Assembly (NCBI RefSeq): GCF_024437655.1
Contig: NZ_JANBVF010000001.1
Location: 62,001-126,000 of the forward strand
DNA length: 64,000 nucleotides
Direction of reading: 5' to 3'
Source: Chitinolyticbacter albus
GTDB taxonomy: Bacteria; Pseudomonadota; Gammaproteobacteria; Burkholderiales; Chitinibacteraceae
This document shows, in pieces, positions 20,608 to 41,670 of the stretch (positions are counted from its first letter, which is position 1; the number at the start of each line of letters is the position of its first letter). Made by a program: the position numbers and the translations under genes. The notes below the pieces were generated by a model, which saw only the letters and a list, made by a program, of their open reading frames with translations, made no database searches and had not been told where the DNA came from.

Positions 20608-20682
20608 TGGCACCCCCGACAGGAATCGAACCTGTAACTAGCCCTTAGGAGGGGCTCGTTATATCCATTTAACTACAGGGGC
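20608..20682 (-). tRNA. tRNA-Arg(CCU)
   Basis: Minus strand: acceptor GCCCCTG pairs with CGGGGGT (one G-T at each end region). The anticodon stem-loop AGCCC-CTCCTAA-GGGCT carries CCT. The T-arm is ACAGG-TTCGATT-CCTGT, with G73 and an encoded CCA (20608-20610). Confidence 0.95.
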
Positions 20683-28493: not shown

Positions 28494-29393
28494 ATGCATT
28501 GGCGACGCGCAGTGATCACCATCCTGACCATCCTCGTGCTGGCACTCGCCGCGGCCGGCTGGTGGCGCTACGGCTACGTGCCGGCGCCGCCCGCCCCTTC
28601 GGCCATCCCCGAAGCCACACTCAAGGCTCGACAATACGTGCGCACCCCGTTCACGCCGCACTGGGATCAGGTGCCACTGGCCGAATTCGAGCGCCAAGCC
28701 AAGCGCTTCCCCGGCCAGCTGTGGCTGGAAGGAAGAACCCACCGCAAGCTGATCGCGCTTACCTTCGACGACGGCCCCACCTACAACACACCGCGCCTCT
28801 TGGACGTGCTGGCCCGGCACAAGGTCAAGGCCACCTTCTTCTGGCTGGGCCGGGAAATGATGCGCTTCCCCGAGGCCGTGCGCCGCGCTGCACGCGAGGG
28901 GCATCTGCTCGGCAACCACACCTGGGATCACCCGGATATCAGCGGGCTGGATGAAACCACGCTGTGGGATGAACAAATCGGCGCGACGCAAGCGGTGTTC
29001 AAGCAGATCCTCGGCACCACGCCACACCTGATGCGCCCGCCCTATGGCCGTATCGCCGACTGGCAGGTCGAGTTCATGCGCCGGCAAGGCCTGCGCGTGA
29101 TCCAGTGGTCGGTCGATGCGCAGGACTGGAACCGTGCCCGCATGGCCTTCGGCAGCCACTTGATCGAGCGCGACGTGCAGGACTACATCCACCCCGAAGC
29201 CATCGTGCTGATGCACGACGGCGGCGGTCCGCGCGAAGACACCGTCGCCGCAGTCGACCGGCTGATCCCCTGGCTGCGCGCGGCAGGCTATGAGTTCGTC
29301 ACCATCGACCAGTTGCTCGATACGCACCCCTACACCGGGCCAGGCCAGCCACGGCCGTTGCCGGAGCTAGCGGTCGACGGGTTCGTGGGCTGA
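28494..29393 (+). CDS. Polysaccharide deacetylase (CE4, NodB domain)
   Basis: 299-residue membrane-anchored or secreted deacetylase. The N-terminal hydrophobic helix (about 8-24, ITILTILVLALAAAGWW) is followed by a NodB domain with all five CE4 motifs: TFDDGP (motif 1, catalytic base and metal Asp), GNHTWDHPD (HxxxH metal ligands), RPPYGR, the SVDAQDW stretch and IVLMHDGG (catalytic His). Such enzymes remove acetyl groups from chitin, chitooligosaccharides or peptidoglycan, and which one cannot be decided here. It is divergent from the permease operon. Confidence 0.92.
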   Translation: MHWRRAVITILTILVLALAAAGWWRYGYVPAPPAPSAIPEATLKARQYVRTPFTPHWDQVPLAEFERQAKRFPGQLWLEGRTHRKLIALTFDDGPTYNTPRLLDVLARHKVKATFFWLGREMMRFPEAVRRAAREGHLLGNHTWDHPDISGLDETTLWDEQIGATQAVFKQILGTTPHLMRPPYGRIADWQVEFMRRQGLRVIQWSVDAQDWNRARMAFGSHLIERDVQDYIHPEAIVLMHDGGGPREDTVAAVDRLIPWLRAAGYEFVTIDQLLDTHPYTGPGQPRPLPELAVDGFVG

Positions 29394-29485
29394 TTGCCAG
29401 GAGCGGCAGCGCGGCAATCTCGGTGCGGTTCCGCACCCGCTCCAGCCGGCACGGTGGCCTTGTTGCGAAAGCATCCATGTCGCGT

Positions 29486-29513
29486 TTGCCCTTTACTTAA
29501 GGGCGCCTACAAT
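29486..29513 (+). promoter_or_regulatory. Candidate promoter in front of the cassette array
   Basis: TTGCCC at 29486-29491, a 16-bp spacer and TACAAT at 29508-29513, pointing into the integron-type cassettes that begin at 29625. Its role as a Pc-like promoter is an inference. Confidence 0.4.
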
Positions 29514-29577
29514 TCGCCAGAGCGCAGGAAACCCGGAACTGGCAAGGATTCACGGCCGAAAGGTTAGAGGGGAAACC

Positions 29578-29612
29578 CACCCTAAAACTTACTCAACACA
29601 CCTTTTAGGGTG
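29578..29612. other. 10-bp inverted repeat just left of the first cassette
   Basis: CACCCTAAAA (29578-29587) and TTTTAGGGTG (29603-29612) form perfect arms with a 15-bp loop, 12 bp before the cassette boundary GTTATGC. It could be part of an attI-like site or a hairpin. No matching integrase is visible. Confidence 0.5.
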
Positions 29613-29624
29613 TCTACTTACAAG

Positions 29625-30188
29625 TTATGCAAAGTGCACACGCAGGGAAATATGGAACAGCTTGATATATCCACATCAGCAATCGTAAAAGTAGCGCTAT
29701 CTGGAATCTTCATATATCTCATAGCGCCAATTTTATTACTCCTTAGAGACATGATCCTGCTTAAGATAATAGAAAAATTTATCCTGACAGGATCATTACA
29801 TTTTGATATTGGACTCTGCGAGTCAGACAGATGGTACTTGAACAACAAATACCAAAAGAAAAGACGAATGAAAATTCTAGTTTCAGGGGGCGCGCCTCAA
29901 TTTGAAATCGACGGCGAGCAAGTCTCGGCAGAAGATTATGAAAATTATGAATCCGGCTTAAATATGCATTTAAACAGATTTAACCTGCTCGACGCAAAAA
30001 TAAACTCTCGTCAAAATCTGGTATTTTGGTTAACCAAGCACTGCAAGCAAGACGGCTTCACAAATCCTATACCTTCATTGCGAGATGAAGCATATAAAAA
30101 TGTAGAGCGAAAGAACGCATAACAAGCGGTTCAAGCCGCTCGCTGCGCGAGCTCGGGACCGGCTAAGGCCGGCCCCTTAACCTGAACG
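29625..30188 (+). mobile_element. Integron-type gene cassette 1
   Basis: The left boundary G|TTATGC (29624-29630) is the exact reverse complement of GCATAAC (30117-30123), which opens the attC of the same cassette. The cassette carries one plus-strand gene whose stop lies in the attC. It is conspicuously AT-rich compared with flanking DNA. Confidence 0.88.
29652..30122 (+). CDS. Cassette 1 protein, membrane-anchored, unknown function
   Basis: 156 residues from the ATG at 29652, with AGGGAAA 2-8 bp upstream. An N-terminal hydrophobic segment at about residues 12-30 (VALSGIFIYLIAPILLLL) anchors a charged soluble part (GGAPQFEIDGEQVSAEDYEN; LNMHLNRFNLLDAKIN). Codon use is AT-rich and unlike the neighbours, consistent with acquisition as a cassette. 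The TAA stop sits inside the attC. I do not recognise the family. Confidence 0.7.
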   Translation: MEQLDISTSAIVKVALSGIFIYLIAPILLLLRDMILLKIIEKFILTGSLHFDIGLCESDRWYLNNKYQKKRRMKILVSGGAPQFEIDGEQVSAEDYENYESGLNMHLNRFNLLDAKINSRQNLVFWLTKHCKQDGFTNPIPSLRDEAYKNVERKNA

Positions 30189-30194
30189 TTAGGC
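30117..30194 (+). other. attC site 1 (integron recombination site)
   Basis: 78 bp. Opens with GCATAAC (30117-30123) and ends with GTTAGGC (30188-30194; recombination after G30188). The internal sequence is strongly self-complementary (GGCTAAGGCC, GCTCGCTGCGCGAGC). Size and ends fit the attC pattern RYYYAAC...GTTRRRY, with one deviation in the R'' box. Confidence 0.9.
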
Positions 30195-30563
30195 CGTATG
30201 AGCGACATCGCTACCCGCCAAATGCTGCTTCTTTCTCTCCAGCGTGCGTTGCTCGGAGAGGTGCATCCAGTTCTGCGGCAAGCCTCGATTGAGGCCGACC
30301 CAACGTCACAGGTGGTCCGCTTGCGCTTTGAGTACGATGGCAATCCATCAGATGCCGCACGAGAGAGTTGCTCCAGCGCTGCAACTGAGGTCATCGCTGA
30401 CTTTCCGACACCCTGGCAATTAGACGAGCAGCATCTTTCTGCTCCGGCTCCTGGCCCCCTGTCGCCCCTTGGCTTTGTTGCGTACCGGCGTGCGGAGGCC
30501 CAGGATGCGGCCTAACAATTCATTCAAGCCGAAGCCGCTTCGCGGCTCGGCTTAACTCAGGCG
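30189..30563 (+). mobile_element. Integron-type gene cassette 2
   Basis: Begins TTAGGC after G30188 and ends in its own attC, which opens with GCCTAAC (30510-30516), the exact reverse complement of GTTAGGC. It carries one plus-strand gene that nearly fills it. Confidence 0.9.
30198..30515 (+). CDS. Cassette 2 protein, unknown function
   Basis: 105-residue soluble protein. The start ATG lies 4 bp into the cassette after the attC core and the TAA stop lies in the next attC, the compact layout typical of integron cassettes. Sequence runs MSDIATRQMLLLSLQRALLG, with VRLRFEYDGNPSDAARE and TEVIADFPTPW. It looks like a small alpha/beta protein of a family of hypothetical proteins that I associate with cassettes (memory, not checked). 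No catalytic motif is evident. Confidence 0.7.
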   Translation: MSDIATRQMLLLSLQRALLGEVHPVLRQASIEADPTSQVVRLRFEYDGNPSDAARESCSSAATEVIADFPTPWQLDEQHLSAPAPGPLSPLGFVAYRRAEAQDAA

Positions 30564-30569
30564 TTAGGC
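30510..30569 (+). other. attC site 2
   Basis: 60 bp. GCCTAAC (30510-30516) to GTTAGGC (30563-30569), consensus ends. The centre is a near-perfect palindrome (AAGCCGAAGCCGC TTC GCGGCTCGGCTT region). It is close to the shortest common attC length. Confidence 0.93.
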
Positions 30570-31269
30570 GGCACGCATGGAGCAACCATCTCCCTTCGGT
30601 GAACTGACGATTGCCCTAGATCTGGCTCCAGTCTCTCAACAAGCGAGAGCCGAGAGCAAATTGGCATTTCAAGCCAAGCTACAGGAAATCACCTCACGGT
30701 ATGCCTTCCTTCTTGGAGGAGACATATCGGTATCTGTCGAGTGGTCAGTTGCGGAGCAGGATCGCTATGAAACCGACAGAGCCCCGGATGTAGACAACAT
30801 TCTTAAGCCACTCCTAGACGCTCTGGTGGGCCCCAACGGCCTACTCATAGATGACAACCAGGTCCAGCACGTTTCTTGTCACTGGATCGACTCCTACTCG
30901 AGAGAAGAAAGAGTGTCGATCACTGTGCGCCACTCACCGGATGAATGGCTAAAGAAGGAAGGCCTGTTCTTCGTTCAACTAGATGGCGGCCTATGTATCC
31001 CTCTCTCTCGAATGATGCAGCACGAGCTCCAAAAGAAAATCGTCGACCTGTACAAGAACGCACTCGCCCTCAGAAACAAGGCTATCGCAGATGGAATTGA
31101 CTACTACCAAGCTCAATACGCAATGCCAGTGCAAAGAGTCTTTCATCGAACCAGGCTAGGTGCATTCGAAGTCATCAGGGTTGAAGAATTCAATGGATCG
31201 AGTGCCGCCTAACCCTTCCATCGAGAGGACGTGGCCCGGCAAGCCGGGCGCCGCCTCTCATGTCAAACG
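30564..31269 (+). mobile_element. Integron-type gene cassette 3
   Basis: Begins TTAGGC after G30563 and ends in attC 3, which opens GCCTAAC (31207-31213). It carries one plus-strand gene encoding a RusA-like protein. Confidence 0.9.
30577..31212 (+). CDS. RusA-like Holliday-junction resolvase encoded in an integron cassette
   Basis: 211-residue protein. Residues 69-98 carry the RusA signature: APDVDNILKPLLDALVG and LLIDDNQV. Asp71, Asp73, Lys77 and Asp92 have exactly the spacing of E. coli RusA Asp70, Asp72, Lys76 and Asp91, the known catalytic residues. RusA-type enzymes cut four-way DNA junctions. This protein is longer than the usual 120-130 residues, with an extra domain of about 90 residues (LFFVQLDGGLCIPLSRM; RVFHRTRLGAFEVIRVEEF). 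The stop TAA lies inside attC 3. The function of the extension is unknown. Confidence 0.82.
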   Translation: MEQPSPFGELTIALDLAPVSQQARAESKLAFQAKLQEITSRYAFLLGGDISVSVEWSVAEQDRYETDRAPDVDNILKPLLDALVGPNGLLIDDNQVQHVSCHWIDSYSREERVSITVRHSPDEWLKKEGLFFVQLDGGLCIPLSRMMQHELQKKIVDLYKNALALRNKAIADGIDYYQAQYAMPVQRVFHRTRLGAFEVIRVEEFNGSSAA

Positions 31270-31275
31270 TTCGGC
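31207..31275 (+). other. attC site 3, right end of the array
   Basis: 69 bp. GCCTAAC (31207-31213) to GTTCGGC (31269-31275). The interior has GGCCCGGCAAGCCGGGC and GAGAGG...CCTCTC pairing. No reverse complement of the right end (GCCGAAC) follows, so the array appears to stop here. Confidence 0.85.
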
Positions 31276-31350
31276 GTCACACGCAGCCACGGGATGTCGG
31301 CTAAGTAGACGAATCCACATATCAGCGGCGCAATAATCCTGGGGGTGTCG

Positions 31351-31788
31351 ATGGACAAATATCTTGATGCGGCAGTAGTCGAAGCGGCAGCCGGCTTGGC
31401 TGAGGGCGGCATCCCGATTGGCTCCGTTCTGGTTCACGAAGGCCAGATCATCGGCCGGGGACATAACCGCCGCGTGCAACGTGGCAGCGTGGTTCTGCAC
31501 GCAGAGATGGACGCATTCGAGAACGCGGGGCGGCTATCTGCCGCGGTGTATCGCCAAAGCACCTTGTATACGACGCTGTCGCCCTGCGCGATGTGCTCGG
31601 GCGCGATTTTGCTATATGGCATCAATCGCGTAGTGATCGGCGAGAACGTGACCTTCCTCGGCGAGGAAGAGCTGCTACGCAGCCGCGGCGTGACGGTAGA
31701 GGTGCGGCAGGACACGCGTTGCATAGAAATGATGCGGCAGTTCATTCACCAGCACCCGGGGCTCTGGAACGAAGATATCGGCGTGTGA
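31351..31788 (+). CDS. Cytosine deaminase of the yeast FCY1 type
   Basis: 145-residue zinc-dependent deaminase. The catalytic motif HAE (His50, Glu52) and SPCAMC (Cys79, Cys82) bind zinc. The whole protein follows yeast Fcy1 in pattern and length: EGGIPIGSVL, GRGHNRRVQRGSVVLHAE, ENAGRL, YTTLSPCAMCSGAI, GENVTF and the C-terminal QFIHQHPGLWNEDIG. This is distinct from E. coli CodA, which is an amidohydrolase. The ATG at 31351 is used; an in-frame GTG lies 6 bp upstream. The gene directly follows the cassette array but shows no attC of its own. Confidence 0.88.
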   Translation: MDKYLDAAVVEAAAGLAEGGIPIGSVLVHEGQIIGRGHNRRVQRGSVVLHAEMDAFENAGRLSAAVYRQSTLYTTLSPCAMCSGAILLYGINRVVIGENVTFLGEEELLRSRGVTVEVRQDTRCIEMMRQFIHQHPGLWNEDIGV

Positions 31789-31941
31789 TGAGGTGGTGTG
31801 GCGGCACGACCCTCGCGCCTCGGATTGGACAGCAATGATGGGCACACAACCACCAGGTGATGCCCAAGCCAAGCTGTGCTAAAAACGTCCGCGCTTTCTG
31901 TCCCCTCGCAAAACCCATCGCACTCACCAAATGGAGTTCCC

Positions 31942-32313
31942 GTGCCGCTGACCGTCGCTGAATACTGCATCCTCATTGCCTGCCTGCTACCCATTGCCTG
32001 CGCCTGGATCGCCAAATCCAGGGGCTTTGACAACCACAACCCGCGGCAATCAGAAGCGGGCCTTTCAGGCTTGCTGGGGCGAGCCCATGCAGCGCAACTG
32101 AACGGTTATGAATCGCTGCCCATCTTCATCGCCGGCGTGCTGGTGGCCGAGCGGGCGCATCACGCGCAGCCGGTCATCGACGGGCTGGCAATGGCTTTTA
32201 TCGCTGCCAGGGTTGGGTATATCGGCGCTTATCTCGCCGATTTGGCGTCGCTCAGGTCTATCGTGTGGCTGGCCGGAATTGGCTGCTGCATTGCGATGTT
32301 TCTGGTGGGGTAG
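31942..32313 (+). CDS. MAPEG family membrane protein
   Basis: 123-residue membrane protein with four hydrophobic segments. The MAPEG features are NPRQSEAGLSGLLGRAHAAQ, then LNGYESLPIFIAGVLVAE and AFIAARVGYIGAYLADLASL with RS at the third loop. The bacterial members are mostly uncharacterised relatives of glutathione-dependent membrane enzymes. The start is a GTG at 31942 with TGGAG 6 bp upstream. Confidence 0.85.
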   Translation: MPLTVAEYCILIACLLPIACAWIAKSRGFDNHNPRQSEAGLSGLLGRAHAAQLNGYESLPIFIAGVLVAERAHHAQPVIDGLAMAFIAARVGYIGAYLADLASLRSIVWLAGIGCCIAMFLVG

Positions 32314-32777
32314 GCCCGTTGCACAACGCCGCTGATAAATTGAGGCCCCCTGCCCCAAACGGATTTATGCCATGCACGCCGTCACCGGTGTGCCCAGCTG
32401 CGTGCCACGGTTGCGTCGGATTGGACCAGACCTGCAGCGAGCCGCGTCCCTTGAGCGCGGCATCGTATTCGGCATAGTGGTGGTTTTGTATTGGGCTGGA
32501 CGGGTTTGCGCATGTGCGACGTTTATCGGCAGGGTTCCGGCACGGGGCGTTATGCGACATAGCCGCTCGGTGAGGAACAACGTGGGGTTGCCGGCACTGC
32601 AGCGGCAGAAATATTCCAACGTCGGACCACTGATCCCCGGATTTCAACCGCTGAAGGACCGCTATTGATGGCCTAAAGACAAGCCTGCTAGCATCGACTT
32701 GCTGACAATAAAAATCAGCCAATTGTGATATCTGCATAAGAATATCCCCATATTCCCGATTGCTCAGCAGGACGCCC
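32314..32777. other. 464-bp intergenic region with mobile-element debris
   Basis: No intact gene. The left half holds an IS5-type transposase scrap on the minus strand. The right part (about 32690-32770) is AT-rich and is the likely promoter region of vgrG. Confidence 0.5.
32400..32510 (-). pseudogene. IS5-family transposase fragment
   Basis: The minus strand encodes AEYDAALKGRGSLQVW, which matches the N-terminal pattern of IS5-group DDE transposases (nW.eYd.AL..RGsL..W). Stops and frame changes flank it, and no terminal repeats or target duplications could be identified. It is a relic only. Confidence 0.5.
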
Positions 32778-34982
32778 ATGTTCGACGCCCTTAACGCTGC
32801 GCAGCTGCTTCAAGGGCTGCTGGAAACCCAACACAACCGGCTGCTCACGCTGGCGTTCCCCAAGGATGATGGTCCTGCTGCCACGCTGATCCCCAACCGG
32901 CTCGATGCCGATGAAGGGCTGTCGCGCGATTTCCGCTACGTGGTGGAAGTGCTGTCCGACGACTCGGCCATCGCGCTCAAGGATGTGATGGGCAAGATGG
33001 TCACGCTGGAACTGGTGCGCGAGGATGGCAGCACCCGTTACTTCAACGGCTACGTGTTCGAGTTCCGTTATGTGCGCAATGAAGGCGGCTACGCGGTCTA
33101 CGAGATGTTGCTGTTGCCGTGGCTGGCGTTCCTGCGGCTGCGCCACGACAACTACCTGTTTCACGGCAAGGCACTGCGCGAGCAGACCGAGCTGATCTTT
33201 GCCGATTATCCCGCCTACCTCGACTGGGAAAGCCGTGTCAGTGGTGCCGATCCGGTGATGACCGACGCCTGCCAGTTCGATGAATCCGATTACAACTACC
33301 TGCACCGGCGCTGGGAAGTGCAAGGTTGGCATTACTGGTACGAGCATGCCGCCGACGGCCACCGTCTGATCGTTTCGGACGATTCGACCATGGCGCCGCC
33401 GGTGGCGGGCGCCAACGGGGTGCTGAGCTGGTCCGACGAAGCCCATGGCCTGGATCGGGATGGCATCGCCCAGTTTGCCCAGGTGCGACAGATCGTCTCC
33501 GGCAAGATCGCCTCGGTCAGCTTCGACTTCAAGAACCCCAAGCCGCAGCAAGTGCTCGACAATACGCTGAACCGGCAGGGCGAAGTACCGGAGATCGAGG
33601 TCTACGAATACGCCGGGGCCTACGGCTTCAAGCACCCGGACGACGGCGAGCAGCTGGTGCGCCAGCGGATGGAAGAAATCGAATCCACCGGTAAGCGCTT
33701 TGAAGGCGGCGGCAACCATCGCCAGGTGCAGGCCGGCCACACCTTCACCCTCGGCGGCGCATACGATACCTCGGCCCTCGGCGCCGACCCGCAGGATCGC
33801 GAGTTCCTGATTACCGAAGTGCGCCATACGGTCGAGAACAACTACCTGATGGCAGGCCAGCAACCCGCGCTCTACCGCAGCCAGTTCGCCTGCCAGCGCA
33901 AGACGGTACCGTGGCTACCGGGGCGTGGCTTCAACAGCACCATGCCGCGGATTTATGGCTTGCAGACTGCGCTGGTGGTCGGCCCACCCGGTGAAGAAAT
34001 TTATTGCGACGAGTACGGCCGGGTGCGCGTGCAGTTCCACTGGGACCGAGAAGGCGCTTACGACGAGAAATCCTCCGCCTGGATCCGCGTGGCCACCAGC
34101 TGGTCCGGCCCCAACTTCGGCAGCGTGTCGGTCCCGCGCATCGGCAGCGAAGTGGTGGTGCAGTTTCTCGACGGCAACCCGGATCGCCCGCTGATCACCG
34201 CGATGGTGCCCAACGCCGCCACCATGCCGCCGTGGGAGCTGCCGGCCAACAAGACCCAGAGCGGCCTGCTCAGCCGCTCCAGCCCCGGTGGCGTGTATGA
34301 CAATGCCAACGCCATCCGCTTCGAGGACAAGAAGGGCCAGGAAGAGCTGTGGCTGCACGCCGAGAAAGACCAGCGCGTGGAAGTGGAAAACGACGAATCG
34401 CACTGGGTGGGGCACGACCGCAGCAAGACCGTGGACCACGACGAAACCGTCCATGTGAAGCACGACCGCACCGAGACGGTGGACAACAACGAGACCATCA
34501 CCGTCCACAACAACCGCAGCGAGCGGGTGGACGTGAACGAAACCATCAGCATCGGCGCCAACCGCAGCGAGGATGTGGGTCAGAACGAAACCATCAGCAT
34601 CGGCGTGAACCGCACCAAGTCGGTGGGCGCCAGCGAGAACGTCAGCATCGGCCGCAACCAGAGCGTCACGGTGGGCTTGAACAAGACCGAGACGGTGACC
34701 ATAGCCAAGGCGCTGACGGTGGGTGCCGGTTACGCGGTCACCGTGGGCGGCGCGATGAACACCGCCGTGGGGCTGGCGCAGTTCGAGGAGGTGGGGCTGA
34801 ACAAGACGGTGATGGTGGGCAAGACCCTCAGCATCACCGCGGGCGACGAGATCACCCTGCAGTGCGGCAAGAGCCTGCTGCGGATGGACAAGGCCGGCAA
34901 CATCACCATCACCGGCACCCGATTCGAGTTCGAAGCCTCCGGCCCGGTGCAGATCACCGGCAAGGACATCGACCTGAATTGA
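32778..34982 (+). CDS. vgrG: Type VI secretion tip protein VgrG
   Basis: 734-residue spike protein of the type VI secretion needle. The N-terminal gp27-like part (residues 1 to about 380) contains FNGYVFEFRYVRNEGGYAVY and QFDESDYNYLHRRWE. It is followed by the OB/gp5 domain (DEYGRVRVQFHWDREG, ASWSGPNFGSV-like stretch) and a C-terminal beta-helix with many NETIS/NRSE repeats at about 535-690, ending TGKDIDLN. The ATG at 32778 is used. No extra effector domain is fused at the C-terminus. It heads the adaptor-spike-toxin operon. Confidence 0.95.
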   Translation: MFDALNAAQLLQGLLETQHNRLLTLAFPKDDGPAATLIPNRLDADEGLSRDFRYVVEVLSDDSAIALKDVMGKMVTLELVREDGSTRYFNGYVFEFRYVRNEGGYAVYEMLLLPWLAFLRLRHDNYLFHGKALREQTELIFADYPAYLDWESRVSGADPVMTDACQFDESDYNYLHRRWEVQGWHYWYEHAADGHRLIVSDDSTMAPPVAGANGVLSWSDEAHGLDRDGIAQFAQVRQIVSGKIASVSFDFKNPKPQQVLDNTLNRQGEVPEIEVYEYAGAYGFKHPDDGEQLVRQRMEEIESTGKRFEGGGNHRQVQAGHTFTLGGAYDTSALGADPQDREFLITEVRHTVENNYLMAGQQPALYRSQFACQRKTVPWLPGRGFNSTMPRIYGLQTALVVGPPGEEIYCDEYGRVRVQFHWDREGAYDEKSSAWIRVATSWSGPNFGSVSVPRIGSEVVVQFLDGNPDRPLITAMVPNAATMPPWELPANKTQSGLLSRSSPGGVYDNANAIRFEDKKGQEELWLHAEKDQRVEVENDESHWVGHDRSKTVDHDETVHVKHDRTETVDNNETITVHNNRSERVDVNETISIGANRSEDVGQNETISIGVNRTKSVGASENVSIGRNQSVTVGLNKTETVTIAKALTVGAGYAVTVGGAMNTAVGLAQFEEVGLNKTVMVGKTLSITAGDEITLQCGKSLLRMDKAGNITITGTRFEFEASGPVQITGKDIDLN

Positions 34983-34988
34983 TGCCCG

Positions 34989-36404
34989 ATGGAGTTCCGT
35001 AACCTCACCCCGTTCGATGTGCTGTGCTACAGCGCGCTCGACGTTGCCGACACCGAATACAAAGTGGTGGCCATGAAGGTGGGCTACCGCCTGGTGGCCG
35101 ATGGTCCGGTCGGCCACTATCGCGCCGAAGTCATCGCCGACGAGCCGCTGCCGCTATGCGTCGAAGACACCTTCTTTGGCGTAATGAACCAGAGCAGCGA
35201 ATCGGCCGAGAGTGATCTCGCCCCCTACAAGCCGCGTTGCGACGTTATCCTGCAAGGCCAGGCGCATGCGCCGGCAGGGCGAGCCGTGCGGCAGCTGCCG
35301 GTGCGGCTGCAACTGCGTGCTGCAGATCAGCCCCGCCCCGCCCCCCCTCAACCGCAGTCCTTCAATCCCTTGATGGGTCTGACCGCCCTGCAGCGGCAAC
35401 AGTGGGAAGCCGCTTGCACCTGGGCGCATAGCCACCCCATCGCCGGGCCGGTGTTGCTCGACAAGACGCTGAACGTGACCGGCCCGCGCCAGTTCATCCG
35501 GCGCAGCTTCATTCGCCGCAGCCTGGGCATGCTGGTTCGGGTGGCCAGCCTCAACCTGATCCAGCCCAATCTTTGGAAGCTCACCGCCCCGCAGCGCTTC
35601 ACCACCCAGCCGCTGCGCTACGAATACGCCTACGGTGGGCAGAACCGCATCGAGGCGAACGACCGGCGAGCTGCCAAGCGGATCAAGGCCAAATACCGGC
35701 TCACCCCGGCACAGCGCGCCGACCACCCCGAGCAGGAACAGCCCCCCGTCGCGCACACCGTGTGCGACACCAACCCGGTCGGCATCGGCTTTGCCCAAGC
35801 GTGGTGGCTCAAGGCCAAACGCATCAAGACCCTGCCGGCGCCGCAGATCGAACACCCGCAACACCCGATGAGCGCCAAGCTGTTCTGGCGCGCACTGCGC
35901 GGCAAGCTCAAGCCGGCACAGGCGCAGGCACTGCAACCGCAAGGCTTCGGCCTGATCGGCCGCCCCTGGCTGCCGCGCCGCACGCTTGCCGGCACCTATG
36001 ACCAGCAATGGCTGGACGAGCGCCATCCCCTGCTCCCCGCAGACTTCGATTTTGGCTACTGGAACGCCGCGCCGGTGGACCAGCAGATCGCCTATCCGCC
36101 ACCGGATGCGCATATCGAAGTTGAGCACGCCACCCCTGAGGGCAAGCTCGTCACCCGCTTGCCGGGGCATCGGGCCTTCATCATCACGCGCTTTTTGAAT
36201 GGCGTGATCCTGCCGCTGCCGATGCGCATGGACACGCTGATCATTGATGGCGATGCCCTCACCCTGACCATCACCTGGCGCTTTCATGTGCCGGCCAGTG
36301 CGCCGATCCGGGTGCTGGAAGCCGATTTCGAAATTGATCCCGCTGCGCCACTGATCAAGTGGCAGCCCGCAACCGCAGCGGCCACACAGCCCGAGCTGGG
36401 GTGA
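34989..36404 (+). CDS. DUF2169 protein, T6SS effector adaptor
   Basis: 471-residue protein of the DUF2169 family, which loads PAAR-type effectors onto VgrG. It begins MEFRNLTPFDVLCYSALDVA and has the family core DVILQGQAHAPAGRAVRQLP and YEYAYGG. It starts 6 bp after the vgrG stop and ends 5 bp before the PAAR-like gene, so the genes are one operon. The C-terminal third (about 330-471) is beta-rich with no separate domain recognised. Confidence 0.88.
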   Translation: MEFRNLTPFDVLCYSALDVADTEYKVVAMKVGYRLVADGPVGHYRAEVIADEPLPLCVEDTFFGVMNQSSESAESDLAPYKPRCDVILQGQAHAPAGRAVRQLPVRLQLRAADQPRPAPPQPQSFNPLMGLTALQRQQWEAACTWAHSHPIAGPVLLDKTLNVTGPRQFIRRSFIRRSLGMLVRVASLNLIQPNLWKLTAPQRFTTQPLRYEYAYGGQNRIEANDRRAAKRIKAKYRLTPAQRADHPEQEQPPVAHTVCDTNPVGIGFAQAWWLKAKRIKTLPAPQIEHPQHPMSAKLFWRALRGKLKPAQAQALQPQGFGLIGRPWLPRRTLAGTYDQQWLDERHPLLPADFDFGYWNAAPVDQQIAYPPPDAHIEVEHATPEGKLVTRLPGHRAFIITRFLNGVILPLPMRMDTLIIDGDALTLTITWRFHVPASAPIRVLEADFEIDPAAPLIKWQPATAAATQPELG

Positions 36405-36409
36405 TACCT

Positions 36410-36766
36410 ATGGCAAACAATATAACGGCCCGCAAAAACGGCAGCTGGAAAGTGGTGGGCATGGTGCCGGATGTCTGCAAAACCCCCATGGGCAACAGCA
36501 CCCCACCCATACCCTATCCGGTGATCGCCAATCTGGGCGACGCCGCACAGGTAATCCCGAGTGTGAAGGCCAATTCGGACCCGGTGGTGGTCTACGACAA
36601 GAGCAAGGTGCCCAAGACCATAGGGGATGCTGCCGGCTCAGCCAAAGGCATCAAGAGCGGCACGGTGGGCGCCAATTGCTATCCCAAGGACCACAGCAGC
36701 ACGGTGCGCGCCAAGGGGCGATTCATCATTCGTCACGATGACGAGTGGGAGATGAACGCCCCATGA
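36410..36766 (+). CDS. DUF4150 PAAR-like spike protein
   Basis: 118-residue PAAR-like (DUF4150) protein that caps VgrG. The pattern is MANNITARKNGSWKVVGMVP, then DVCKTPMGNSTPPIPYPVIANL and GTVGANCYPKDHSST. Here it is a separate gene, not fused to the toxin: its TGA overlaps the toxin ATG (36763-36766), so the two are translationally coupled and probably act as one effector unit. Confidence 0.88.
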   Translation: MANNITARKNGSWKVVGMVPDVCKTPMGNSTPPIPYPVIANLGDAAQVIPSVKANSDPVVVYDKSKVPKTIGDAAGSAKGIKSGTVGANCYPKDHSSTVRAKGRFIIRHDDEWEMNAP

Positions 36767-37731
36767 GCAAGAAAGGCAACACCACGGGTAAAACGGTGGG
36801 CCAGCCCGGTGGCGTGCCCACGCCGCTCGATCAGGAAAAACCCACCCTCAAGATCGAAACACCGGAAGAGGCCAGCGTAGGCACCCAGGTGCTCGATGGC
36901 TTGCAAATCGGGCTGGATGTAGTAGGTTTGATCCCGGGTTTCGGTGAGGTTGCCGATCTGGCCAACGCCGGGATCAGCGCCGCCCGTGGCGATTTTATTG
37001 GCGCCGGCTTGTCGCTGGCAGCTGCAATCCCCTTCGTGGGTTGGGGTGCGACGGGCGCCAAGGCCGTGAAGCGCGGCGTGGACGTGGCGGACGCCGCCAA
37101 CGACGCACGCAAGGCCAAGGAAGCGGCTGATGCCGCCGCCAAAGTCGCCAAGGAAAAAGCCGAACGGGAGGCCAGGGAAAAGGCAGAGAAAGAAGCCGCG
37201 GAAGCTGCGGCAAAAGCCGAGAAGGAAGCAGCTGAAACGGCCGCAGGGAAAGGTGGCAAGGGCAAGGATGGCAACAAGACCAAGCCAAAGAAAAAAATGA
37301 AGTGTGGTGAGTACGGGAAGTATGGTGATCTCAAGAAGAAAACGGGAGATGGGAAATTCGATCGGGATCATATTCCGTCGAAGGCCGCATTGAAGGCACG
37401 CGCAGAGGCGCTAAAAGGCGATACTCTCACCAAGGCGGAAAAGACTGCGATTGATAATGCTGCGGATGCAATAGCCATTCCACGACAAGCGCATATAGAC
37501 ATAAGTCCTACATATGGTCAGACCGCGGCAAACGCTGCGAAAGATGCGGGAGATTTGGCTGGCTCCGCCCGTCGCGATGTAGAAGCAATGCTTGGGAAGA
37601 TTGATGAATATGACGCTGACGGTGGGTGCAAAAAGGCATACCAAAAAGCCGCCAAGCGAGTATTGAAAAAGAACAACGCAGAGTTTGACAAGTGGCTGGC
37701 TGATGTTATGAAGACCACCAAGAAAAAATGA
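36763..37731 (+). CDS. T6SS effector with predicted HNH-like nuclease C-terminus
   Basis: 322-residue toxin. The N-terminal part has two hydrophobic Gly-rich segments at about 47-100 (IGLDVVGLIPGFGEVADLAN; GAGLSLAAAIPFVGWGATG), typical of pre-toxin regions. A highly charged Ala/Lys/Glu coiled coil follows at about 110-165. The C-terminal domain (about 179-322) starts KCGEYGKYGDLKKK and contains FDRDHIPSKAAL and IPRQAHIDISPTYGQ. The DxDH and second His suggest a His-metal nuclease of the HNH/EndoVII type (inference). Base composition becomes AT-richer from about 37290, as expected for an exchanged toxin tip. Confidence 0.78.
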   Translation: MSKKGNTTGKTVGQPGGVPTPLDQEKPTLKIETPEEASVGTQVLDGLQIGLDVVGLIPGFGEVADLANAGISAARGDFIGAGLSLAAAIPFVGWGATGAKAVKRGVDVADAANDARKAKEAADAAAKVAKEKAEREAREKAEKEAAEAAAKAEKEAAETAAGKGGKGKDGNKTKPKKKMKCGEYGKYGDLKKKTGDGKFDRDHIPSKAALKARAEALKGDTLTKAEKTAIDNAADAIAIPRQAHIDISPTYGQTAANAAKDAGDLAGSARRDVEAMLGKIDEYDADGGCKKAYQKAAKRVLKKNNAEFDKWLADVMKTTKKK

Positions 37732-37747
37732 CTGAAAGGAAAAACCA

Positions 37748-38209
37748 ATGCTAAATGTGAATGACATCCTCTCCCTGCTTGGCAAGTCGGAAAACGATGA
37801 GCAGGTCAAACAGTTGCTGTCCAAGCTTGGCATTCAATTGCCGCTTGATCGGCTACCGCGTGGCGAAGATCAAGCCAACTACGAGATTGAGAATCAACCG
37901 CTTGAGCTCTGTTTTGTTTCGGCAGACTCCCTGTACCCTGATGACGATAGTTTCAAGGAGGGCGAGTTGGTTCTAAAGACAGTTTTTGTCGAGCATAGAG
38001 GTGACGTTCAAGGCGACGACCCGCTCTTGCCTTTCGGCTTGCGCCTCGATCTGTCGCGCAGTGCGGCTCGAAAAGCATTTGGTTCACCCGCCTGGAGCAG
38101 CCCTGTAATGAATAACGACCGCTGGATTTTTGATGGCGTTAAGACGCTTGTCTGCTTCAATGACGATGAATCCGGGGTGCGCCAGATTGCCTTCAGTCCG
38201 AATGCATGA
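37748..38209 (+). CDS. Candidate immunity protein 1
   Basis: 153-residue acidic cytosolic protein directly after the toxin (16 bp), with AAAGGA 7 bp upstream. It begins VNDILSLLGKSENDEQVKQL. Its central LELCFV and late GSPAWSSPVMNNDRW align with the third candidate (GTPEWSSPV.VIHNDRW). Position and paralogy make it the likely antitoxin of the upstream effector. No named immunity family is claimed. Confidence 0.7.
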   Translation: MLNVNDILSLLGKSENDEQVKQLLSKLGIQLPLDRLPRGEDQANYEIENQPLELCFVSADSLYPDDDSFKEGELVLKTVFVEHRGDVQGDDPLLPFGLRLDLSRSAARKAFGSPAWSSPVMNNDRWIFDGVKTLVCFNDDESGVRQIAFSPNA

Positions 38210-38228
38210 GCTAACCGAGCATTTTTGA

Positions 38229-39185
38229 ATGATACGAGCAGGCGATATTACCGGTCTATTTGGCTCCCTGGTCAGCGCTGACTGCATTGAGGTGCTGTTT
38301 GATTCTCTTCGTACGGCCAACCGACCGTCGTTAACCGGAAGTGATCGGCATGCCTATCACGACTGGGTTCTGGTTCGTCGCAAAGGCATCGAGCTCGGTT
38401 TCGCAGATTCGGAATACCATAATGCAGCACCCCGCGCATGTTGGGGGCGTGGCGACCTTATATTGTCTCAAACCTATTTCTATAGCGGCCTTGGCGACAT
38501 TCAGGCATATGCTGGAGAATTGCCATTGGGCTTGATTTTCAGCGATGGCCGTGATGCAACACGGACCAAGCTGGCCGCTTTTGAATCGTCTCGACACTCT
38601 TATCGCAACGACACTTGGGACGCAGAAGGTTACCGCTTGAGCGTGACCTATACGGCGGATGGGCAAGCCATTGATCGGGTCGCATGTCGACAAATGGCAG
38701 CCCCGATTCTACGGGCACAGGAAATGCAGTGGCCCGAGCTTTCAGCGCTAACTTCTGCGTTTGGTGAAAAACAATCCGATCGAGCATTCGCCTCATTGTG
38801 GGGCGATGTGCTGGACGCTGAAAAATTGCAGGAAGCACAATCTGAGGGAGAAATTGACTTTACGGACACTTTCGGGGCAACCATTAGCCTCGTAGGTGGG
38901 GCATTCCGCTCTATCACCTTGCATCGCAATCGCGATATGGAGTCGGCAGGCTGGGATGGGGCTCTGCCTCAAGGTCTTGATTTTGAGGATGATCCCGAGG
39001 CGCTTTTCCGCAAGATTCCAGACCAGCCAGTCCAGCAATCCGATTCCGCCTTGACGGGCCACGCCGTCTGGCATTTTGCCGACTACACACTGCACGTGCT
39101 CTACAGCAACCTCGATAATCGACTGCTACGCGTCAAGTTAATCGCTCCAGGAACATGGAAATGCATCGCTGATGGAGATGCGTAA
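38229..39185 (+). CDS. Candidate immunity protein 2, two-domain
   Basis: 318-residue protein made of two weakly similar halves. Residues 1 to about 160 (DITGLFGSLVSADCIEVLFD; GIELGFADSEYHN; GELPLGLIFSDGRDATRTKL) and about 170-318 (ELSALTSAFGEKQSDRAF; GALPQGLDFEDDPEALFRKI) both follow the layout of the flanking single-domain immunity candidates. The start ATG at 38229 lacks a clear Shine-Dalgarno. Function as a second immunity protein is inferred. Confidence 0.6.
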   Translation: MIRAGDITGLFGSLVSADCIEVLFDSLRTANRPSLTGSDRHAYHDWVLVRRKGIELGFADSEYHNAAPRACWGRGDLILSQTYFYSGLGDIQAYAGELPLGLIFSDGRDATRTKLAAFESSRHSYRNDTWDAEGYRLSVTYTADGQAIDRVACRQMAAPILRAQEMQWPELSALTSAFGEKQSDRAFASLWGDVLDAEKLQEAQSEGEIDFTDTFGATISLVGGAFRSITLHRNRDMESAGWDGALPQGLDFEDDPEALFRKIPDQPVQQSDSALTGHAVWHFADYTLHVLYSNLDNRLLRVKLIAPGTWKCIADGDA

Positions 39186-39197
39186 AGGATTAATTCT

Positions 39198-39704
39198 TTG
39201 TCTCAGGGCAGAGAAGCAAGTGCGAATAAGGTGAATGCGAATGAAATACTGGCGCCGCTAGGGCAGCCTGTCTCCAATCAAGATATTGTCCAGCTGCTGC
39301 AAGCAGGCTGGCTCATGGGGGCGCGTCCAAAACCGAAGCGCGGTGAAACGGATATCAACATTCACTTGGAGGGCTCCGGCCTTGAACTGGGGTTTTCACT
39401 GGCCGAATCCTTACCGTCGCGCTGGGGTGGTGCCCGTTCGGAAGGGATGCTGATTTTCGACGTCGTGTTCTTTTCACCCACTGGCGCACCCTCGGCGGCC
39501 CTGTGTCGCGATCTGCCTCGCGGCCTGCAGTTCTCGACCTCCCGCTCACAGGCCCGAGCTAGTCTGGGGACGCCGGAATGGAGCAGCCCGGTTGCTGTCA
39601 TCCATAACGACCGCTGGCGCATGGGCGATAGAATGATAACCGTTGATTTTGATGACGACGAAGCGGCCATCGAACAGGTGGTGGTGCAATTGGCAACAGC
39701 TTGA
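39198..39704 (+). CDS. Candidate immunity protein 3 (TTG start)
   Basis: 168-residue paralogue of candidate 1. It reads ANEILAPLGQPVSNQDIVQL, then GLELGFSLAESLPSRWGG and LPRGLQFSTSRSQARASLG and GTPEWSSPV. The start is taken as TTG at 39198 because AAAGGA lies 8 bp upstream; a GTG at 39231 is the alternative. It ends 103 bp before the beta-propeller-like gene. Confidence 0.65.
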   Translation: MSQGREASANKVNANEILAPLGQPVSNQDIVQLLQAGWLMGARPKPKRGETDINIHLEGSGLELGFSLAESLPSRWGGARSEGMLIFDVVFFSPTGAPSAALCRDLPRGLQFSTSRSQARASLGTPEWSSPVAVIHNDRWRMGDRMITVDFDDDEAAIEQVVVQLATA

Positions 39705-39806
39705 ATCTGCAAGCTGGCCTGACCAAGCTGGGGCCGCACTCCGCCGTGGCCGGCGGCGGCGCGGCGACCGAATACGGCGATATCTAAAGAACCAGCACCG
39801 AGGAAA

Positions 39807-41159
39807 ATGGCTGCAGAAATGATTTGCGACAAAGCGCGTTACGAGCAGTTTTTCAAAGGATACACCGTCTACGACTGCGCCATCGGCTACGACAACACGC
39901 GCTATTGCTTCATCCTGGTCGAGACCACCGACTCCCCGCACTGCGATCCGCTGCCTCGCACCCGATTCCTGTTCGCGCGCATGGAACGCCCGATGGAACG
40001 GCGTTTCTATTATCAGGAGGCAGATTATTTCAACTTCACGCGGGTGGCCTTTTCCGATGCGGGTGGCAAGTCGGAGTTCGTGGCGGTGGATATGGGGAGG
40101 CATGTTTTCCGGTATGACGCGCCTGCCGCAAATGTAGAGCAGGACATCCCGCCCCAGATTCCCGATTCCGAATACTGGTGGTCGCCAACCAAGGTGACTC
40201 GGGTTGCCGGGCGGCTGACGGTAGCCGGCACGGCACGGCAGTTACGCATCCGGGCTGGCGCCGATGACTGGCGGCCTTTTTCCACCTCACCGCCCATACC
40301 CGAGCGGCTTGCAAAGGAAGGTAAAGGCGTACTGGAAACTGGTTTTGAGGATGTAGCCGGGTTTGCCGAAGACGATCTCTACGCCGTCGGCGGTACCGGC
40401 GACGTCTGGCATTTCGACGGCAAGGCCTGGCGACAGATCGATTTCCCATCCAACGAATTGCTCTACACCGTGTGCTGCGCCGGTGATAGCAACGTCTACA
40501 TCAGCGGCAATGGCGGCTCGCTGTGGGTGGGGCGCAATGACCGCTGGAAGCGATTGCTGGAAGGCGGCTACAGCCTGCCGTTCAAGGACACGGCGTGGTT
40601 CGCTGGCCGGCTGTGGTGCGGCTCGGACTACGGGTTGTGGGTATTGCAGGACGGCAAGCTGATTACCCCGCCGGATCAGCCACCGGCGGTGCGCAATGCC
40701 TGCGGGGTGATCGACATCAGCCCGGATGGCAAGGTGATGCTGACCGCCAGCCCGCACGGCGCGGTGATCTATGACGGCAAGACCTGGACCCTGCTGTTCT
40801 CTGCGTTCGCTTTTGCCGAACAATCACCGCGCGCCGCAGCGCGGCAGCAACTGGGGCGCGGCCAGGAACGACTGACCGACGACGACGGCATGCAGGCACT
40901 GCTGGACGTGATCGGCAACGACGGCCCCGACGCCGCGCTGGCGGCGCTGGGCCAGCCCGAAACGCTGGATCTGGCCGCACTGCGCGAGCACAGCTGGCTG
41001 TTGCTGGTGAACGCGATCAGCGCCCAGGGCGCCTGGGATGGCTACGACGCGGTAGCCCGGCGCCTGATCGAACTGGGCGCGAACGCGGATGCAGCCGACC
41101 CCGAAACCGGCATGACCGTGCGCGCGATCGCACAGGCGATGAATGTGTCGCTGACATGA
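39807..41159 (+). CDS. Beta-propeller-like protein of the T6SS island, unknown function
   Basis: 450-residue protein without signal peptide. The middle (about 110-330) has repeating GxxxVWHFDGKAW / GSLWVGRNDRWKRL / YGLWVLQDGKLI blades that look like a beta-propeller. The C-terminal part (about 385-450) resembles ankyrin-type helices (AVARRLIELGANADAADPET). Similar proteins occur next to VgrG/PAAR genes and may be immunity or accessory proteins (inference). GAGGAAA lies just before the ATG. Confidence 0.6.
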   Translation: MAAEMICDKARYEQFFKGYTVYDCAIGYDNTRYCFILVETTDSPHCDPLPRTRFLFARMERPMERRFYYQEADYFNFTRVAFSDAGGKSEFVAVDMGRHVFRYDAPAANVEQDIPPQIPDSEYWWSPTKVTRVAGRLTVAGTARQLRIRAGADDWRPFSTSPPIPERLAKEGKGVLETGFEDVAGFAEDDLYAVGGTGDVWHFDGKAWRQIDFPSNELLYTVCCAGDSNVYISGNGGSLWVGRNDRWKRLLEGGYSLPFKDTAWFAGRLWCGSDYGLWVLQDGKLITPPDQPPAVRNACGVIDISPDGKVMLTASPHGAVIYDGKTWTLLFSAFAFAEQSPRAAARQQLGRGQERLTDDDGMQALLDVIGNDGPDAALAALGQPETLDLAALREHSWLLLVNAISAQGAWDGYDAVARRLIELGANADAADPETGMTVRAIAQAMNVSLT

Positions 41160-41199
41160 GGAGCGCCGTTCTTTCGTTGCGCCGCACAGGGGATCAATG

Positions 41200-41670
41200 A
41201 TGCAGGCCGCGATCCCCGCCCACATCGAACCGCTGCTCATCCGCCACGCCGAGGACGCCGCATTCTATTGGGCGCAACTGGACGGCGCGGCGCGGGCATT
41301 CAATCTCTACCCCGAGCGGTACACGCATTTCAACCGCCTGCTCGATGCGCACCTTGAGGGCTTGCTGATCGCCGAGGAGCACGGCGTCGCGCCCGCGCTG
41401 AAGGCACTGGAACGCTGGGGTCAGCCGGGTGAGGCCTTCGTCGCGGCATGGTTGAGCCGCTTTGCGAGGTGCTGGCTGGTGCTCACCCGTGCCAGCGTGC
41501 CATCGAGATCGAAGCAGGCGAGTTTCCAGTCAGTCATCGTCGCGCTCCCCCATCCCCGGCAATACCCCTCTTGCTCCGGCCACGATCCGCCGGAACAGCG
41601 CATCCACCTGAGGTGGCTGGATCTGCCAGGCGTGCCAGTAGAGTGGCACGTCGTGCGGGTTGCCAGGTAA
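41200..41670 (+). pseudogene. TIGR02270-like T6SS-associated gene, truncated after about 87 residues
   Basis: The first 87 residues look like a TIGR02270-family HEAT-type protein often seen in T6SS loci (MQAAIPAHIEPLLIRHAEDA; FNRLLDAHLEGLLIAEEHGV; GEAFVAAWLSR). Beyond about 41460 the frame only reads antisense through a HAD remnant and the end of the argP-type gene, so the natural C-terminus of about 300 residues is lost. AGGGG lies 7 bp before the ATG at 41200. A short product may still be made. Confidence 0.6.
41421..41537 (-). pseudogene. 5' remnant of a HAD-family phosphatase gene
   Basis: The minus strand encodes MTDWKLACFDLDGTLARVST followed by SQHLAKRLN and then unrelated sequence with a stop at 41421. 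DLDGT is HAD motif I with the nucleophile Asp. The rest of the enzyme (about 180-200 residues) is absent. Its ATG (41535-41537) overlaps the end of the LysR-type gene, so it was once the second gene of that operon. Confidence 0.75.

Follow-up and report, generated by a model that had tools for sequence, protein, structure and literature searches.

An integrase-less array of three cassettes in Chitinolyticbacter albus as the probable remnant of a sedentary chromosomal integron

The window (i.e. the whole 64-kb stretch of DNA analysed here) contains an array of three attC sites at 29624–31275, which is read in the + direction. Three cassettes stand head to tail on the + strand: cassette 1 (29625–30188, with bounds taken from the attI and attC1 crossover points), cassette 2 (30189–30563) and cassette 3 (30564–31269). 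They end in attC1 (30117–30194; GCATAAC...GTTAGGC), attC2 (30510–30569; GCCTAAC...GTTAGGC) and attC3 (31207–31275; GCCTAAC...GTTCGGC), respectively, all on the + strand. The left 7-mer of the array is GTTATGC (29624–29630), and in all three cassettes the left 7-mer is the reverse complement of the 7-mer that opens the cassette's own attC. The open reading frames at 29652–30122, 30198–30515 and 30577–31212 each stop within their own attC. A sequence-only reading of the window had already proposed three complete cassettes with this end pairing and with all stops inside the attC sites; the pairing and the stops are confirmed in the sequence, and the attC sites were assessed with covariance models.

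A simple string rule for attC was rejected because it is unspecific (five matches in the window, against a mean of 1.55 and up to six in shuffles), and covariance models were therefore used. The first model was built from 17 attC sites of the same genome, window sites included. In its alignment 89% of the cells in the R''/R' and L''/L' helices stay paired, and the covariation score exceeds those of all shuffles and all slid controls; attC1, attC2 and attC3 score 36.4, 60.3 and 74.4 bits in this model. Because it contained the window sites, a second, held-out model was built without them. The held-out model finds attC2 (65.8 bits, E 2.5e-13) and attC3 (64.8 bits, E 4e-13), while attC1 reaches only 12.3 bits (E 0.96). 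The stem of attC1 is longer and different. Compared with dinucleotide shuffles, the bottom strands of attC1, attC2 and attC3 show better folding (z −2.2, −5.1 and −3.2, respectively); attC1 (z −2.15 before rounding) thus folds better than most shuffles. An Rfam scan gave no family matches at the attC sites. By sequence, attC1 thus appears to be a divergent and weakly detected site whose gene, boundaries and own-end pairing fit a cassette site, and the locus has tandem cassettes that each end in an attC, with attC1 weak in the held-out model.

The three cassettes differ in what their genes resemble. The cassette 1 gene (29652–30122) encodes 156 aa from an ATG, with an N-terminal hydrophobic helix. 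It has no family match in Pfam, NCBIfam, PHROG or PADLOC and, as an orphan, no relative among 300 genomes from the order; distant relatives occur on Klebsiella plasmids at 26% identity, and no attC was found near those examined. Cassette 1 is AT-rich, with a GC3 of 0.39 against 0.84–0.88 in the deacetylase and ABC-transporter host genes. A structure prediction for its product was set aside (pLDDT 55). The cassette 3 gene (30577–31212, 211 aa) encodes a RusA-like Holliday junction resolvase with a C-terminal extension (PF05866, E 5.6e-10; PHROG RusA-like). It has plasmid relatives at 29–30% identity, again with no attC near those examined. Neither cassette 1 nor cassette 3 has relatives among viral contigs, and a defence-system library gave no match for the three cassettes.

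The cassette 2 gene (30198–30515) encodes a predicted MafI2-like immunity protein of 105 aa, which falls outside all Pfam, NCBIfam, PHROG and PADLOC families. It has 26 relatives, including proteins of Lysobacter, Pseudoxanthomonas, Xanthomonas, Vogesella, Chromobacterium, Stutzerimonas and Comamonas. In the loci of seven relatives the start codon has the same spacing as in the window, with exactly 3 nt between it and the end of the preceding attC, and nine loci have their next attC starting at the stop codon. This cassette-precise conservation across genera indicates that cassette 2 is a real mobile cassette. From the family alignment we obtained an AlphaFold model (pLDDT 88), whose best structure match is 8hhj_A ('MafB2 immunity protein'; Foldseek E 3e-6), with a Z of 12.1 and an rmsd of 2.4 over 96 residues; the next unrelated match has a Z of 7.9. 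The same chain is also the best sequence-profile match of cassette 2, though a weak one (E 0.06), and the predicted structure has the MafI2 fold. MafI2 binds its toxin through a face of acidic residues that lie on helix 2, on the loop after it and on strand 3 (PMC9970974). Five acidic residues (E56, E64, D68, D76 and E77) are kept in 21–25 of the 26 relatives and are predicted to sit in this named region. An immunity role for cassette 2 is therefore likely, as far as a predicted structure can suggest one, and the family offers a testable role for an unnamed cassette, namely immunity to the toxins of competing bacteria.

Directly upstream of the array lies an attI and integrase-promoter region (29479–29624, +), recognized by its homology to the intI–attI regions on contigs C11 and C2 of the same genome (the window lies on C1). 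The identity is 73% to C11 over 29475–29620 and 81% to C2 over the last 79 bases. The crossover point at attI falls between G29624 and T29625, so that a stretch of ∼145 bp homologous to an intI–attI region sits exactly at the crossover point of the first cassette. The conserved attI core TTTAGGGTGTCTACTTA, at 29604–29620 in the window, is present as an exact match on C1, C2 and C11, with one mismatch on C27 and with three mismatches on C36, and all five core sites adjoin cassette arrays. The reversed control pattern has no match in the genome. A further match with three mismatches on contig C24 was left uncounted, since no attC was found on that contig. Elsewhere in the family and order, other genera have the same motif adjoining their IntI genes; the presence of an attI at the first cassette is thus indicated by homology to the C11, C2, C27 and C36 sites as well as to intI-adjacent sites in other genera. 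Within the attI there is also an inverted repeat (CACCCTAAAA...TTTTAGGGTG, window 29576–29614), both arms of which are altered together in C27 (ACACCATA...TATGGTGT), as if pairing mattered.

Next to the attI, on the − strand, is an intI remnant (29418–29478) that begins at the start codon and extends over roughly 20 codons, with the remainder gone. Compared in a fixed register from the ATG, it is 53% identical to the C11 intI over 60 nt, a value equalled by none of 20000 random window segments, and the similarity fades beyond about nt 60. The fixed-register test took the place of a free local alignment of the intI start, which was unconvincing (52 of 2975 random segments were as good). The remnant is short, and its similarity is significant only in the fixed-register test. 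The earlier claim that no integrase is visible in 64 kb thus holds for a full-length gene, which is absent from the window, but overlooks the ∼20-codon remnant and the attI; the linked intI is reduced to these ∼20 codons and is not functional. The same reading had left the choice between a free-standing array and one with a lost or distant platform. The absence of a linked integrase stands, but the platform is in place, with its attI and intI start directly upstream. Integron cassettes are usually expressed from the attI side, and an attI-side promoter would presumably serve this array too; a promoter scan gave no more predictions than shuffles give.

To the left of the array is a polysaccharide deacetylase gene (28494–29393, +; PF01522, E 3.7e-35) that is 90% identical in the sister species, and to the right a MAPEG-family gene (31927–32313, +; PF01124, E 7.6e-25). 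The sister species has this gene immediately behind the deacetylase, and 48 bp there replace window 29417–31855, i.e. the whole block. The comparison covers this one other species of the genus, and both a gain here and a loss in the sister are compatible with it. The sister species has no IntI. At the C11 locus the integron is also missing from it, and at the C2 locus it matches only the side beyond intI. The block ends have no clear target duplication or terminal repeat. Homology to intI ends at about 29418 and host-flank homology to the sister species ends at 29416, so that the two borders meet, as expected if a deletion had taken away intI from about codon 20 on. The claim of a foreign three-cassette array without a linked integrase is supported.

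The block missing from the sister also holds a gene of the cytidine/nucleoside deaminase family (31345–31788, +; PF00383, E 2.7e-22). It is accessory, being found in four of 43 family genomes, with different neighbours in the others. We considered it as a fourth cassette and dropped it, since there is no attC downstream of it or in the vicinity of its relatives. Elsewhere in the window there are three tRNA genes (2474–2660 and 20611–20682), none of them at the array border. Close to the array, a Type VI secretion VgrG (TIGR03361) and then a DUF2169 gene occupy 32760–36404; the open reading frames at 36745–41670 have no Pfam match and could contain an effector and immunity set.

The genome contains further integron platforms in various states. 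Two genes elsewhere in the genome score above the NCBIfam IntI cut-off, one open (C11:27769–28713) and one with an internal TAG (C2:171647–172588). The C11 IntI (326 aa; TIGR02249, 479 bits against a cut-off of 265) aligns end to end with VchIntIA, the Vibrio integron integrase (2a3v), and has its R, HxxR, H and Y motifs in place. Judged from its sequence, this open integron-type tyrosine recombinase is the only integrase in the genome that looks intact and might be able to act in trans. The C2 IntI reads 'AGLV*RVSPHVLRHSF', with the TAG stop preceding the HxxR box and the tyrosine. The two proteins are sister copies in a tree (81% identity, support 100/99). Contig C36 carries the fifth integron platform (C36:13721–17941), made up of an intI pseudogene with several stops, an attI and a cassette array in which the product of the second cassette is, by sequence, an ATP-binding (AAA-type) protein. 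On C27 (18041–19758) an attI that lacks an intI adjoins a TetR-like gene, and cassettes whose attC sites are degenerate come after it. Partial IntI N-terminal matches that adjoin attC clusters on C14 (36747–37007, IntI positions 1–87) and C27 (12395–12598, positions 21–88) are likely to be further intI fragments. In all, at least five attI platforms are present, of which one has an intact IntI, one an early stop, one a pseudogene and two no intI. Genome-wide, 42 matches to the attC model (E up to 1) fall into ∼12 clusters on nine contigs; this locus number is approximate, since the assembly is a draft in 84 contigs and completing it may join some attC clusters. For several of the other attC clusters no attI was found. 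A stricter family-wide search gives 36 matches in this genome, one in the sister species and 0 to 29 in other family members.

We interpret the locus as the remnant of a sedentary chromosomal integron from which the integrase was deleted while the attI and the array were kept, and give this reading a probability of roughly 0.85. An integrase would have inserted the cassettes at the attI (29624/29625), giving the three-cassette array in the + direction. A deletion would then have taken away everything in intI beyond about codon 20 and left the attI, the promoter region and the array in place. This order of events, capture first and intI deletion second, is the one we infer. The cassettes would no longer be served in cis, although the C11 integrase may still excise, shuffle or add cassettes in trans.

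A different history would produce a similar structure if the attI–cassette segment was copied from another platform by recombination that started inside intI, so that no complete integrase was ever present here. The sister relationship of the C2 and C11 IntI suggests that platforms have multiplied in this lineage, and both the left border that cuts intI and the empty sister site fit such a copy. However, the window attI is only 73–81% identical to those of C11 and C2, so the copy would have to be old or come from an unsampled source, and we consider this history rather unlikely. Nor do we favour an ancestral block that the sister species lost, which seems doubtful to us: other genera of the family do have IntI-bearing integrons and the sister retains one attC elsewhere, but three genomes of genus g3 (G003, G013 and G022), which have the next closest deacetylases, contain no IntI and no such block beside the deacetylase, and the strikingly AT-rich composition of cassette 1 also argues against it. 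That a distant integrase placed the cassettes at a secondary, non-attI site which never had its own platform (a true CALIN) would agree with the lack of a full intI linked within 64 kb, with IntI elsewhere in the genome and with several other attC clusters not found to have an attI, but it is very improbable and largely refuted by the intI–attI homology with an in-register intI start that lies exactly at the first crossover point.

On the reading of a decayed sedentary integron, one intact IntI elsewhere in the genome means that the window cassettes are not necessarily immobile. Given an identical attI core and attC sites of a single type, it is plausible that the C11 IntI would work on the window site in trans. 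A wider proposal, which we put forward as a tentative possibility, is that this one intact integrase serves at least five attI platforms in trans, with the window platform still exchanging cassettes, and that an unnamed orphan family of MafI2-like immunity proteins moves between Proteobacteria as cassettes and protects against the toxins of other bacteria. The five-platform genome allows a direct test of whether one integrase serves several platforms.

The locus can be compared with several known systems. In Xanthomonas, integrons have undergone loss or truncation of intI, CALINs occur elsewhere in the genome and CALINs are mobilized in trans (PMC12444791). The present locus is like these inactivated sedentary chromosomal integrons in being a one-site chromosomal platform with a truncated or deleted integrase, a short residual array and CALINs elsewhere, and differs from them in that (i) the attI and the intI start are recognizable after the deletion and (ii) one genome holds several related platforms that have decayed to different degrees, so that integrase decay can be read in stages in a single genome. 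The window array, with its three attC sites and no intact intI in the window, also matches the CALIN class of IntegronFinder (at least two attC without a linked integrase) and would be so labelled by the software. However, an attI is present in the window, and the CALIN label hides it; IntegronFinder 2 offers no attI detection outside class 1 and CALINs are about as frequent as complete integrons (PMC9024848). An array that software would call a CALIN can thus be an integron with its attI retained. Pseudogenes account for about a third of intI genes, and one in five integron-bearing lineages carries more than one intI copy, in some cases through duplication (PMC2426708). The sister intI genes found here in one genome, one of them broken, are like those intragenomic copies, whereas the presence here of five attI platforms and one intact integrase differs from them. 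Finally, the cassette 2 protein resembles MafI2 of Neisseria meningitidis (PDB 8hhj, PMC9970974) in its predicted fold over 96 residues and in the predicted placing of acidic residues on helix 2 and strand 3, and differs from it in belonging to a single-gene integron cassette without a toxin gene and in sharing 15% identity. In brief, an integrase-less integron with a residual array is already known as a type, and what is added here is a genome with five attI platforms and one intact integrase, together with a MafI2-like cassette family.
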